In this document: piece after piece, positions 7,732 through 12,988 of the stretch
Layout of the letters: the number at the start of each line of letters is the position of its first letter
Numbering within the stretch: the stretch's first letter is position 1
Source: Lacrimispora saccharolytica
GTDB lineage: Bacteria; Bacillota; Clostridia; Lachnospirales; Lachnospiraceae
Assembly: GCA_016899975.1 (NCBI GenBank)
Contig: JACJJN010000015.1
Coordinates: 1 to 64,000 of the forward strand
Direction: 5' to 3'
Length of the DNA: 64,000 nt
The notes under the pieces: generated by a model
Database searches by the model: none
Told to the model about the DNA's origin: nothing
Seen by the model: only the letters and a program-made list of their open reading frames with translations
Translations under genes and position numbers: made by a program

Positions 7732-8670
7732 TTACTGCAGGAAATTATCGATGATCACGCTCTCCGCCTCTTCCTCGGAAAGCCCGAGAGTCCGAAGTTT
7801 CATGATCTGTTCATCGTTGATCCTTCCGATGGCTGCCTCATGGATGATCGCCGCATCCACATGCCGCGCGTCAATCTCCGGAATCGATGCCACCTGTGCA
7901 TGTTCCATGATAATGGAATCGCATTGGATATGCGCATGGCAGGCTGCATTTCCGATGGCTCTCGGATGGAAATTCTGCCGGGAAGTGCCTTTTGCCACGG
8001 ATCGCGAAATAATCTGGGCGTTGGTGCCGGAACCATTCATTTCCACATCAATATCGGAAACGGCGGTCTGCGCGTCGTGAGTCATCAGACGTTCCGTCAC
8101 ATTCAGACGGGAATTCTCTTTCATCCGTACATAGGTCTTGCGCACGGTGGAATCCACACCGCGGATCTGGGCGGTATCCAGTGTAAACACCGCTCCTTCT
8201 TCCAGTTCAATTTCTGTCACCGGGTTCAGGATCTTCTCTCCTGTTCCTTCGCCTTCTCCGTAGTGCTTTTCTTCATACCGGACATTGGCGTTTTTGCCCA
8301 CATGGAAAGCATGAATTCCATCATGGCGGGCATTGTCACAGCCGGCATTATGGATTCCGCAGCCGGCTACGATCGTCACATCCGCTCCTTCTTCTATATA
8401 AAAATCATTGTACACAATATCCGTCATTCCCGGAACTGCCAGGACAACAGGGATATGTACCTGTTCTCCCTGAGCCTCTTTGCTGATATATACATCGATT
8501 CCCTGACGGTCCGTCTTTCTCTTGATCTTGATATGCTCGCTGTCTCCATGGCAGAGGGAAGTTCCATTGTAGCGCAGGTTGTACGCGCCTTCCTTCCCGA
8601 AACTCTCCGTATCAATCTGGGCGAGTACCTGACGGGTAATCGCGTCCAGTTCTTCCATATCCCATTCCAT
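7732..8670 (-). CDS. smsB: SufB/SufD-like Fe-S cluster scaffold (SMS-type SmsB)
   Basis: A 312-residue member of the SufB/SufD beta-helix family, shorter than classical SufB (~465) and lacking its N-terminal domain. The core has A-G-C-G-I-H-N-A-G-C followed by A-R-H-D-G-I-H, and the C-terminal part contains H-A-H-I-Q-C-D-S-I-I and I-P-E-I-D-A-R, the segment that contacts the SufC ATPase and includes cluster ligands. It starts with TGATG overlap on the upstream ATPase gene, so the two are translationally coupled. Two-gene sufC-sufB-like systems without sufS/sufU are known from anaerobes as a minimal SUF-like (SMS) machinery; the role assigned here rests on that knowledge. Confidence 0.82.
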   Translation of the reverse strand: MEWDMEELDAITRQVLAQIDTESFGKEGAYNLRYNGTSLCHGDSEHIKIKRKTDRQGIDVYISKEAQGEQVHIPVVLAVPGMTDIVYNDFYIEEGADVTIVAGCGIHNAGCDNARHDGIHAFHVGKNANVRYEEKHYGEGEGTGEKILNPVTEIELEEGAVFTLDTAQIRGVDSTVRKTYVRMKENSRLNVTERLMTHDAQTAVSDIDVEMNGSGTNAQIISRSVAKGTSRQNFHPRAIGNAACHAHIQCDSIIMEHAQVASIPEIDARHVDAAIIHEAAIGRINDEQIMKLRTLGLSEEEAESVIIDNFLQ

Positions 8671-9401
8671 CAGTGCACACTCCTTTCTTTCATGCAGACA
8701 CAGGACGGCTGATCCTCAAAAAGCACGGGCAGCATATCCTCTCTCTTTCCGCACCGATCAACCTCCGCGTCATTGATGATCAGAATTCTGTCCGCCATCT
8801 GTATGATCCTTTCCTGATGGGAGATCAGGATCAGGCTCTGATCCTTCGCCTCGTGAATCTGTTCAAACTGTTTCACCAGCATGGAAAAGCTCCAAAGGTC
8901 GATTCCTGCCTCCGGCTCATCAAAGATACAGATCTTATGCTGCTTTGCCAGCACCGTGGCAATCTCGATCCGCTTGCGCTCGCCGCCGGAAAGGGTGGCA
9001 TCTACCTCCCGTTTCAGGTACTCTCTGGCACACAGTCCAACGTTGCTGAGCAATGTGCAGCACACCTCCTCAGGCAGTTCCCTGCCCGCCGCCAGATTCA
9101 AAAGACGTTCCACCGTCATTCCCTTAAAAACCGGAGGCTGCTGGAACGCATAGCCGATCCCCGCCTTTGCTCTTTCATCCGGAGTCATCTGTGTCAGATC
9201 CACCCCATCCAGTATGATCTTTCCGCTGCTGGCAGGAACGATCCCCATCAGTACCTTTGCAAGCGTAGATTTTCCTCCGCCGTTGGGTCCTGTGATCACC
9301 AACATTTCTCCGTCCTGTACATCAAAACTCACATCCCGGAGAAGTGTCACTTCTTTTCCGTTTTCCATGACTTTATAAGTCAGATTTTCTACCTGAAGCA
9401 T
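8670..9401 (-). CDS. smsC: SufC-like ABC ATPase of the minimal Fe-S assembly system (SmsC)
   Basis: A 243-residue soluble ABC ATPase with Walker A G-P-N-G-G-G-K-S-T (about residues 39-47), signature L-S-G-G-E-R-K-R-I-E, Walker B I-C-I-F-D-E-P-E-A-G-I-D and the switch histidine in I-S-H-Q-E. The E-P-E-A-G-I-D variant is typical of SufC-like proteins, which form a soluble complex with SufB/SufD and have no membrane partner. AAAGGA precedes the ATG. It is the first gene of a two-gene operon and its stop codon overlaps the smsB start by one base. Confidence 0.88.
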   Translation of the reverse strand: MLQVENLTYKVMENGKEVTLLRDVSFDVQDGEMLVITGPNGGGKSTLAKVLMGIVPASSGKIILDGVDLTQMTPDERAKAGIGYAFQQPPVFKGMTVERLLNLAAGRELPEEVCCTLLSNVGLCAREYLKREVDATLSGGERKRIEIATVLAKQHKICIFDEPEAGIDLWSFSMLVKQFEQIHEAKDQSLILISHQERIIQMADRILIINDAEVDRCGKREDMLPVLFEDQPSCVCMKERSVH

Positions 9402-9981: not shown

Positions 9982-10086
9982 GTAATCGTTCCTCTTCAAA
10001 CACTCCAGCCGTGACTTTTTGTGCTCTGCTATGATATGATAGATACATCAGAGCATATTAGAGCGTGTTTGAAAAGGAGGAGAAAA

Positions 10087-10438
10087 ATGATTCGAATGTT
10101 TGATGCCTGCAATCTTGACCAGGTCATGGAGCTCTGGCTTAACGGCAATATCGAAGCCCATGATTTTATCCCAAGGAATTACTGGGAGTCAAATGCCCCG
10201 ATGGTCCGGGAACAGCTCTTACAGGCAGAAATTTATGTATATGAAACCGATGGGAAGATCCTTGGATTTGTCGGACTGCAGGGAGACTATCTGGCAGGAA
10301 TTTTTGTGAACAGACATGCGCGCCATGGAATTTTACCTGAGAGAAGGATTTTCTGCCCTTTCCGAAGATATCGATGAAGCTACCGGGGAAACAGATATTG
10401 TTCTGTCATGGAAATTTGAAGAAAGGAACCGCCTCTGA
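10087..10438 (+). pseudogene. GNAT acetyltransferase with an internal deletion and frameshift
   Basis: The frame from the ATG at 10087 (AGGAGG upstream) encodes the N-terminal half of a GNAT acetyltransferase, up to the strand Y-L-A-G-I-F-V before the acetyl-CoA loop, then runs into foreign codons after H-A-R. A second frame from 10325 encodes the C-terminal end (E-F-Y-L-R-E-G-F ... V-L-S-W-K-F) and stops at 10438. The CoA-binding R/Q-x-x-G-x-G/A loop and the following helix, about 25 codons, are missing. GCGC sequence at the junction would fit a short-homology deletion. The product cannot be active. Confidence 0.8.
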
Positions 10439-10458
10439 TTCTGACAGAGGCGGTTCCT
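10424..10458. terminator. hairpin between convergent genes
   Basis: AGGAACCGCCTCTG and its exact complement pair around a seven-base loop, overlapping the end of the acetyltransferase remnant. No long T run follows on the plus strand; on the minus strand TTCTTCAAATTT follows. It probably separates the remnant from the convergent queL gene. Confidence 0.55.
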
Positions 10459-10497
10459 GCATCCATTTCATTCTCTTATTTTACTCCGGCAGTTGTT

Positions 10498-11187
10498 TCA
10501 GTCTCCGACACCGAAGTCTGTCTTCTCATACAGCACTTCCACGGTCGGGTCGTCCAGAAGCCATGCATATTTTTCCATAAACCAGTCTACAAGCTCCTGG
10601 TCGCGTTTGACATCCGTGGAATTATCGGTAAATACGTTGACCGTTCCCAGTTCGAAGTGCTCCTTCAGCATACGGATATCGTAATCGATCATCTCTTTTG
10701 TCTGCCCTTTGATTCCAACCATCAGGCACGGGGAGTCAAAGTATCGGCGCACCTCTTCCGGTGAATGGAAATCCGCATGCTTGTTCAGGTATCCCTCACG
10801 AAATTCCTCATCGAATGTCTCGACGCCGATCTTAAATGTGATCGGAATTCTCATAAACTCCCTCATCTGCTGAAGCCGGTTTCGGTACATCCAGTGCGCC
10901 TCAAAGAAGAGACGGTGTATGTGCTTTTCCCGGACAATCCTGCGGATCAGCTCCAGCGTCTCATCCGGCAGCTCAAAGCAGCTTCCGGAATTGATCACTT
11001 CCAGAACGCCGAATTCACCTGTGACATTGGAGAGCACCTCAGCGTTCAGCGTAAGCATCTCCTCCCTGTCCCTGGAATTGTCGTCGATGTAGTCACAAAA
11101 GCGGCACTTGCCCCATGCGCAGGGGCGGCTTTTGAGAAGAACGATCTCTCTTTGATTTTTATTCGTGATACGGTTATAACGCTCCAC
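10498..11187 (-). CDS. queL: radical SAM protein, probable queuine lyase (QueL)
   Basis: A 229-residue radical SAM protein. The cluster motif near residue 23 is C-x4-C-x2-C (C-A-W-G-K-C-R-F-C), wider than the classical C-x3-C-x2-C. Later segments S-G-S-C-F-E-L-P and G-V-E-T-F-D-E are consistent with SAM binding strands. It is the third gene of an operon with a nucleoside hydrolase-like gene and an ECF S subunit, overlapping the latter by 14 bases. In Clostridioides difficile such a set salvages queuine: QueK releases the base and the radical SAM enzyme QueL converts it to preQ1. The start is GTG, eight bases after GGAGG. The assignment rests on context and the upstream preQ1 aptamer. Confidence 0.75.
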   Translation of the reverse strand: MERYNRITNKNQREIVLLKSRPCAWGKCRFCDYIDDNSRDREEMLTLNAEVLSNVTGEFGVLEVINSGSCFELPDETLELIRRIVREKHIHRLFFEAHWMYRNRLQQMREFMRIPITFKIGVETFDEEFREGYLNKHADFHSPEEVRRYFDSPCLMVGIKGQTKEMIDYDIRMLKEHFELGTVNVFTDNSTDVKRDQELVDWFMEKYAWLLDDPTVEVLYEKTDFGVGD

Positions 11188-11770
11188 GATGTTTTCCTCC
11201 GTTTTTCATTATCATTCTGAACGGTGCGGGAAGTGCCCGCACCAGAACTGCCGCCAGCGCCAGGCAGGCGAAGCGGTCCAGGTAATCGGTCAGTGCCTGA
11301 ACGGCGCACACGCTTACCGTCAGATTCCATCCAAGTCCATGGAGAAACTGCACGAGAATCGTGGAGCCTGAGGACGTGATGCCGCCGAATAAAAACGCGG
11401 TCACGGAAGCGCTCACCACAGTTCCCGGAAGGGATACCAGGATCGCGGCAGGGAAGAGGCGCGGCAGGCGAAGCTGCCTGTCCTGCACAATTCTGATCTT
11501 CTGAAATACAACTCCCGCAAGTGCTCCTGTGATGAGCTGCACCGGCAGGTAGTAAAGCGCATAGGGGTCTGTGGTGACGCCGTTCAGGAGCGCGCTCGCC
11601 GCTCCGGTCACCGCGCCCCAAAGCGGTCCGAACAGCGCCCCTGCCGCCATTGTCCCGATGGAATCCAGATACAGCGGAAGCCTGAGCATCAGCGCCAGAT
11701 TTGCTCCGATGATATTTACGACAGCAAGCACCGCAAGTGCGCAGAGCTGCACAGATGGAAGTTTCTTCAT
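11174..11770 (-). CDS. ECF transporter S component, probable queuosine/queuine precursor importer
   Basis: A 198-residue very hydrophobic protein with about six membrane segments. The N-terminal portion (L-R-L-P-L-Y-L-D-S-I-G-T, then G-P-x-W-G-A-V-T-G-x-x-S-A-L-L-N-G) is typical of ECF-type substrate-binding S subunits of the QueT/QrtT group. Such subunits dock on a shared EcfA/EcfA'/EcfT module encoded elsewhere. It overlaps the hydrolase stop by four bases (ATGA) and the radical SAM gene by 14, so all three are translated from one mRNA. The ligand is inferred from the operon and riboswitch, not from the sequence itself. Confidence 0.75.
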   Translation of the reverse strand: MKKLPSVQLCALAVLAVVNIIGANLALMLRLPLYLDSIGTMAAGALFGPLWGAVTGAASALLNGVTTDPYALYYLPVQLITGALAGVVFQKIRIVQDRQLRLPRLFPAAILVSLPGTVVSASVTAFLFGGITSSGSTILVQFLHGLGWNLTVSVCAVQALTDYLDRFACLALAAVLVRALPAPFRMIMKNGGKHRGAL

Positions 11771-12786
11771 CGCAGCACCCTCCCCATCAGTTCCTCCAGC
11801 ACCTGTTCCTCACACTCGCCGATGACACGCGTGAAGAAAAATTTCATAAACCGCAGCGCATCGGTCTTTGTCAGAATATGGCTGTTCTTCTCACGTTTCC
11901 AGAAGTCATGGTCATCCACTACCGTCTGTCCCAGGCAGATGCCCTCGGTCTCCACCTCGGTGTGTGCCGCAAAACCGCTGCACATGGTACGATCGATAAA
12001 GTATGCCACTGCCAGCGGATCGTTGATCACACAGCCAATGATCCCCTCCTGCTTCCAGTGGAAATCAAAATAAAACCGCGTGATTCTTCGAATAAAATCT
12101 CCTCTCTCAGGATTCAGGCAGCACATATATTCCAACAGGTTCGGCGTCAGCACGATCTCGCGGGTGACGTCAAGACCGATCATGTGAATTCTTTTCCCGC
12201 GCAAAACAGGAAGCGCGGCAAATCCTGCGTAGACTTCCCCTGCCGCATGGGGATCGCACCAGTAATTGTATTCCGCCACCGGCGAACAGTTTCCATGGCT
12301 CTTATAGCTTCCGCCCATAGACACCAATTCTCCAAGTCCGGCAAGGCTCTCCGGATACTGCCGCATCAAACGCGCCAGATTCGTCATCGGTCCCAGAGCA
12401 ATAATGGAAATCTTTGCCTCCTCGGGAGCCTTTGCCGCCTGTTCCAGCATCCGGGCAAGAAATTGTACTGCCCCTGTCCTGGGGCGCATTTTTGTAACTT
12501 CGGGGTAATGGGATTCTCCGAGCCCGTCCTCCCCATGAGTGTCCATGGCATCCACATACGTGCGGACAAGAGGGCTCTCCTCTCCGATATAGACTGGTAT
12601 GTCCATTCTGCCCATCTGTTTTAAAATCTTCAGGGCATTCTCGGCGCCCATACGCGCCGGGACGTTACCGCAGACGACCGTGATGCCCAGGATTTCCAGT
12701 TCCGGCGACGCGAGCGCCAACATCAGCGCCAGGGCGTCGTCAATCCCCGGGTCACAGTCTATAATGACTTTCTTTGCTGCATTCAT
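11767..12786 (-). CDS. queK: nucleoside hydrolase family protein, probable queuosine hydrolase (QueK)
   Basis: A 339-residue inosine-uridine-preferring nucleoside hydrolase fold protein. The calcium-binding motif D-C-D-P-G-I-D-D-A is at residues 10-18; later family positions include the A-L-G-P-M-T-N-L-A segment and the C-terminal N-D-P-L-A. It is a little longer than common purine/pyrimidine nucleoside hydrolases. In the presence of a queuine-type lyase, an S subunit and a preQ1 aptamer, hydrolysis of queuosine (or its 5'-phosphate) to queuine is the likely role. AAGGAG precedes the ATG at 12786. It is the first gene of the operon. An ordinary nucleoside hydrolase is the main alternative. 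Confidence 0.78.
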   Translation of the reverse strand: MNAAKKVIIDCDPGIDDALALMLALASPELEILGITVVCGNVPARMGAENALKILKQMGRMDIPVYIGEESPLVRTYVDAMDTHGEDGLGESHYPEVTKMRPRTGAVQFLARMLEQAAKAPEEAKISIIALGPMTNLARLMRQYPESLAGLGELVSMGGSYKSHGNCSPVAEYNYWCDPHAAGEVYAGFAALPVLRGKRIHMIGLDVTREIVLTPNLLEYMCCLNPERGDFIRRITRFYFDFHWKQEGIIGCVINDPLAVAYFIDRTMCSGFAAHTEVETEGICLGQTVVDDHDFWKREKNSHILTKTDALRFMKFFFTRVIGECEEQVLEELMGRVLR

Positions 12787-12837
12787 TCTCCAATCTCCTT
12801 TTCTTTTTCTGTTTCCGCCGTGCGGCGGTACGAGATA

Positions 12838-12872
12838 CTTGGTTTTTTATACTGGGAAGTTCACGAACCAGT
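12838..12872 (-). promoter_or_regulatory. preQ1-I riboswitch aptamer
   Basis: Read on the minus strand, ACTGG and CCAGT form a five-bp stem around a 12-base loop that begins TTCG, followed directly by the A-rich tail TATAAAAAACCAAG. Stem length, 12-base loop and tail closely follow preQ1-I aptamers. It lies 52 bases before the queK start. Upstream are a TATAAT at 12903-12898 (its -35 is weak) and a strong hairpin at 12874-12897. A short CCGCCG/CGGCGG hairpin follows the aptamer; no terminator T run is seen, so control may act on translation. Confidence 0.72.
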
Positions 12873-12988
12873 CCGAAGCTGCGTATACGCGGCTTCGATT
12901 ATATAAATGCAACAGTGAGTATATCACAGATTTTTCCAAAAAGAAACCTTTGAAAGTATCTTTTCCTGCTTTCGTAAACAGAATTGAA

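Follow-up and report, generated by a model that had tools for sequence, protein, structure and literature searches.

This locus raises the question of what a set of three overlapping genes on the minus strand of a Lacrimispora saccharolytica contig does, and how the leader in front of it may govern its expression. The genes lie at 12786-10498 of the window, the whole stretch of 64,000 nucleotides that was analysed, and are arranged as follows.

11767 to 12786, minus strand: queK, putative queuosine hydrolase of the IU_nuc_hydro family (Pfam PF01156, 309 bits)
11174 to 11770, minus strand: qrtT-like ECF transporter S subunit gene, overlapping queK by 4 nt
10498 to 11187, minus strand: queL, putative queuine lyase of the radical SAM type with a C-x4-C-x2-C motif; GTG start, 14-nt overlap with the S subunit gene

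Taken together, the analysis points, with a probability of about 85%, to a queuine-salvage operon in which a type I preQ1-I switch in the leader senses the product, control is most likely translational, and preQ1 most likely represses. An operon consisting of a PreQ1-I riboswitch, queK, qrtT and queL has already been published for Clostridioides difficile (PMC11477304), and therefore the system itself is known. The comparison that the first-pass annotation had suggested with this operon (CD1682-84; L028, L038, L041 and L048 in our set) showed that the three genes, their order and the aptamer class are all shared with the window. The gene set is thus already known, and the new part is the control region.

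The preQ1-I aptamer and its leader

The elements of the leader, in the order in which they would be transcribed, are listed below.

12918 to 12926, minus strand: extended -10 promoter element TGATATACT, inferred from conservation; predicted transcript start at 12911/12910
12903 to 12911, minus strand: 5'-terminal element UGCAUUUAU, which provides the 5' strand of helix PA and complements the first three codons of queK (from the start codon on)
12873 to 12898, minus strand: P0 hairpin (UCGAAGC...GCUUCGG), directly before aptamer stem P1
12833 to 12877, minus strand: preQ1-I (type I) aptamer, RF00522, with P1 formed by 12872-12868 and 12855-12851
12832 to 12842, minus strand: 3' tail of the aptamer, CCAAGUAUCUC, a possible anti-Shine-Dalgarno strand with the same sequence in 22 leaders
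12815 to 12828, minus strand: variable GC hairpin between the tail and the Shine-Dalgarno (SD) sequence, folded in the window model
12790 to 12801, minus strand: SD region AAAGGAGAUUGG, conserved in the group
12778 to 12786, minus strand: start region of queK, AUGAAUGCA, whose three codons provide the 3' strand of PA

The preQ1-I element had been proposed in the first-pass annotation from its form, and a covariance search yielded a match at 12877-12833 that scored 48.5 bits, above the gathering score of 39 (E 8.6e-7 in the search of the window), and this was the single RF00522 match in the whole 3.25-Mb genome. The proposed architecture, a 5-bp stem (ACUGG/CCAGU) with a 12-nt loop starting UUCG and an A-rich tail, was found as well. 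In type I aptamers, the 5' strand of P1 is followed by UU, the 3' strand is preceded by UC and the tail contains a C (Kiliushik et al., PMC11625349), and all of these were present in the window aptamer (ACUGG-UU...UUC-CCAGU...AAAAAAC), which shares the P1-flanking UU/UC and the A-rich tail with C with the switch of Carnobacterium antarcticum and with RF00522, supporting its assignment as a type I preQ1-I riboswitch and putative preQ1 sensor, which as a type I member would bind (two) preQ1. The interval first annotated ended at 12872, whereas the leader extends further, to the predicted start at about 12911, with the promoter at about 12926.

Upstream of the aptamer, a pattern match, to which several leaders were added by eye, found TGn-TATAMT in the majority of the group's leaders, as a rule 5-8 nt upstream of the conserved 5' element. 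In the window's group, the TGn-TATACT element is followed by an almost invariant UGCAUUUAUAnAAUC and then by the P0 hairpin; a -10 element (TATAAT, 12903-12898) proposed by a scan was superseded by this conserved TGn-TATACT farther upstream. Counted from the AAUC motif, P0 reached 4 bp or more in 38 of 42 leaders, and its inner pairs mostly occurred as several standard pair types, up to six at one position. On comparison of the leaders, P0 is a covarying hairpin adjoining the aptamer in the Lachnospiraceae group and in some Lactobacillales.

The window differs from other type I preQ1-I switches in adding P0 and a 5'-terminal start-codon helix and in having its SD outside the pseudoknot. In switches with the SD in the pseudoknot (Tte, Can, E. 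coli), the SD lies within the aptamer tail, whereas that of the window starts 31 nt past the last tail base (12832 to 12801). The terminator-type preQ1-I switches of B. subtilis queC and Clostridium share the aptamer class and use an intrinsic terminator, whereas none was listed on the minus strand of the window leader by a terminator scan. The GC hairpin at 12815-12828, which varies in length and sequence among leaders, is not an intrinsic terminator because it has no U-run.

A survey set of 80 queL loci was fetched, and RF00522 matches at or above the gathering score were found in 48, all upstream of queL on the same strand; a pattern scan recovered sub-threshold aptamers of like form (e.g., L012, L032, L035 and L037). 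A further 60 of 397 family genomes had an RF00522 match at E <=0.001, with 26 above the cut-off, and many of these 60 aptamers precede queT-like genes and have the SD inside the aptamer.

Predicted pairing between the mRNA 5' end and the start codon

Across the group, the 5'-terminal element and the start codon region can form 8 to 10 contiguous pairs (9 in the window fold), and changes on one strand are compensated on the other: ACAUUUAU with AUGAAUGU in L103, GUAUUUA with UGAAUAC in L024, UAUUCAU with AUGAAUA in L021 and L121, AAUUCAU with AUGGAUU in L123, and UGCAUUUA with UGAAUGCA in L162, where the start codon is UUG. Among the cells of PA, representing 17 distinct strand pairs, 93.5% were paired and both sides had changed in seven; none of 500 shuffles matched this pairing, and slid registers reached at most 50%, although PA was first conceived on inspection of the alignment, and this test used a register and rows picked with knowledge of PA. 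More independent tests are provided by a permutation of own against swapped start regions and by leaders found later. For 23 leaders not selected by score, the permutation gave p values of 1e-4 to 1.2e-3, and for a stricter set of 18 leaders, 3e-4 to 6e-3. L169 and L170, found after PA had been conceived, have compensations of their own that fit it (GCAUUAU against AUAAUGC). In a register shifted onto AUG-C, the complementarity recurs in an Enterococcus plasmid leader (UGCAUUU against AAAUGCA) and in L100 (UGCAUUG against CAAUGCG), and one position shows three different pairs. The 5' element was absent from nine Lachnospiraceae leaders of the set.

The window leader was predicted to fold into a closed structure of four helices (-39.5 kcal/mol, z -3.0), and none of 200 shuffles was equally stable. 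As a competing state, we considered a duplex between the 5' element and the A-rich loop of the aptamer; it fits the window but was dropped because L021, L121 and L123 lack it yet keep PA. We consider it probable that the Lachnospiraceae and some Lactobacillales have an enlarged preQ1-I switch, in which the 5' end would sit on the start codon and codons 2-3, with P0 and the aptamer between them and the SD closed as well. Such a closed leader would be an expression platform new to preQ1 switches, for which the direction of response could even be ON. Neither PA nor P0 is included in the RF00522 model (45 positions) or in the published descriptions of preQ1 switches that were compared, a comparison that covered work other than the original preQ1 papers; P0 may already have been noted in earlier literature.

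Leaders of the same design were also seen on mobile or unusual records. A conjugative plasmid of Lacticaseibacillus paracasei (L162, NZ_CP050502.1, 4001-5535) carries queK and an S subunit gene without queL, flanked by IS5 transposases, and in an Enterococcus faecalis plasmid record (L168, NZ_CP142821.1, 2860-4520) a queK-S subunit pair and a leader, both similar, adjoin Mur ligase and glutamine amidotransferase genes. The two contigs L169 and L170, labelled Listeria phage, have a queK-like hydrolase gene behind the leader and probably represent bacterial DNA that entered a phage metagenome assembly; a phage collection gave no match to QueL, and viral contigs gave none to the aptamer pattern. 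In L121, the preQ1 aptamer, the 5' element and the start pairing stand directly before the S subunit gene, without queK.

Proposed action of preQ1 on the closed leader

Since the leader has no terminator, control probably acts at translation. In the model that we favor, the mRNA 5' end would be paired with the start codon through PA, P0 would stack beside the aptamer, the aptamer tail may pair with the SD, and preQ1 binding would most likely stabilize this closed, off state. Repression of the operon by preQ1 is likely by analogy, because all characterized preQ1 switches covered by the review repress (PMC11625349) and preQ1 is the pathway product. The first-pass annotation had reached the same direction; the direction itself is likely correct, but it was over-stated, as the platform is not of the characterized types and the fold is undecided on direction.

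Pairing between the tail and the SD was rejected as the only mechanism and kept as suggestive, because the energy of the duplex was equalled in 8-25% of random or shuffled controls, within chance, and its covariation was weak. In partition functions, this pairing shifted little and inconsistently under a pseudoknot constraint. PA was closed in the fold model both with and without an imposed pseudoknot, and therefore the fold leaves the opening of the leader and the action of preQ1 unexplained. The closure of PA in both states would also agree with a constitutive role for PA and P0, such as message stabilization or a fixed low translation, with preQ1 acting through indirect occlusion by the pseudoknot, as has been proposed for the type I Can switch. 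Type I switches can act on an SD at a distance of up to 10 nt (PMC11625349), and in L012 the SD core lies only ~10 nt past the pseudoknot tail; however, the window SD, at ~31 nt past the aptamer, is outside the published reach, and the conserved tail and SD segments border freely varying linkers, so that we regard this reading as possible but doubtful.

An ON switch, in which the CCA of the unbound tail would pair with UGG near the SD and keep it closed until the preQ1 pseudoknot takes up the tail bases and opens it, is unlikely. The pseudoknot does use tail bases 31-34, the same bases for which the unbound fold predicts pairing with UGG, and imposing the pseudoknot raised the mean unpaired probability of the SD from 0.32 to 0.41. 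However, PA was still closed in the bound model, the same folding test without the 5' element leaned slightly the opposite way in most leaders, and both the precedent of the characterized switches (PMC11625349) and feedback logic point to repression. A deduction of the ON response from thermodynamic linkage was also rejected, as the constrained partition functions had no consistent direction.

The C. difficile leaders, unlike that of the window, are without PA and the AAUC-P0 motif; downstream of their aptamer they have AGUUCUC(C), which complements the aptamer loop (GAGAACU) and can also cover the SD. Loops of this type read GAGAACU, GAGAACC, GAGAUCC or GGGAACC and the downstream complements AGUUCUC, GGUUCUC or GGAUCUC, with compensatory changes at two pairs, and the downstream segment continues into a CUCC able to cover the SD. 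In folding, closure of the SD increased with a bound aptamer in 14 of 15 such leaders. The complementarity between loop and anti-SD, with the two compensated pairs, was observed in L028, L030, L032, L034, L042, L045, L051, L057 and L061 and suggests an anti-anti-SD off switch in C. difficile and its relatives; the review of C. difficile riboswitches that was consulted does not mention it. Terminators occur in many leaders of Clostridium and in some of Lachnospiraceae; neither a terminator nor the C. difficile-type complementarity is present in the group of the window.

Gene identities and the proposed salvage pathway

The first-pass annotation had read the three overlapping genes as a nucleoside hydrolase-like protein, an ECF S subunit and a radical SAM protein of queuine salvage; their coordinates and overlaps were reproduced, and the assignment as QueK, S subunit and QueL was supported by the match to PDB entry 6p78, a tree of QueK and the C. 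difficile operon. QueL showed 55% identity to the queuine lyase of 6p78 over residues 1-229, its full length (E 4.3e-82). Its cluster motif, CAWGKCRFC, has the CxWGKCxFC spacing of the solved 6p78 protein, and no structural difference between the two is detectable by sequence. The C-x4-C-x2-C motif is thus present as annotated, but its spacing, which had been called unusual, is a family mark, because it was found in 81 of 81 QueL homologues checked (window included) and in 6p78; this ruled out the spacing as a sign of novel chemistry. From this homology we infer that QueL cleaves queuine to preQ1 by radical SAM chemistry.

QueK, the product of the sole IU_nuc_hydro gene of the genome, showed 53% identity to the QueK of C. 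difficile, compared with 31-34% to RihA, RihB and RihC of E. coli. A maximum-likelihood tree placed every queL-linked hydrolase, including the C. difficile and window proteins, on one side of a branch with support 98/87, apart from RihA/B/C. Given this clade, scores far below the curated RihA and RihC cut-offs, and an operon shared with queL and a preQ1 aptamer, it is highly improbable that the hydrolase, albeit an IU_nuc_hydro member, serves a purine-salvage operon as an ordinary inosine-uridine or purine nucleoside hydrolase. QueK would instead hydrolyze queuosine to queuine. The S subunit scored just below the cut-off for PF12822 (27.7 versus 30.7 bits) and below that for NF045596, the CD3073 family (77.6 versus 180 bits), and no QrtT model for scoring it was found; since the scores miss the curated cut-offs, its assignment rests on homology (41% identity to the C. 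difficile S subunit) and an identical operon position.

TGT, QueA, QueH, EcfT and the QueT transporter were all found in the genome. In six-frame family searches of the genome, on which the gene absences rest, QueC gave two weak sub-threshold fragments only, and QueF and QPTR gave no match. The lack of a convincing QueC and of QueF, while TGT, QueA and QueH are kept, argues for salvage only, and this organism probably does not synthesize preQ1 de novo. In the proposed pathway, the S subunit and the shared ECF module would together import queuosine, queuine or preQ1 (putative substrates), QueK would release queuine from queuosine, QueL would convert queuine to preQ1, and TGT, QueA and QueH, encoded elsewhere in the genome, would complete tRNA queuosine.

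Two further features were observed near the operon. On the plus strand, 10021-10460 holds an apparent GNAT acetyltransferase remnant, with its N-terminal and RAMEFYLREGF parts in different frames, its middle seemingly missing and its first piece without a Pfam match. On the minus strand, ~1.1 kb past queL, 7732-9401 encodes a SufBD-core protein (PF01458) and a SufC-like ABC-type ATPase with a one-base overlap.

The operon adds one more gut bacterium to the known queuine salvagers, with a salvage-only lifestyle. One aptamer in front of one operon appears with platforms that differ by family, namely a terminator, the C. difficile-type competition of loop and anti-SD, or pairing of the 5' end with the start codon. 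In the last of these, the amino acids at codons 2-3 (MNA, MNV, MNT, MNM) track the RNA pairing. The smallest known riboswitch class can apparently be embedded in a larger closed structure, in which the first nucleotides of the transcript would mask the start codon.
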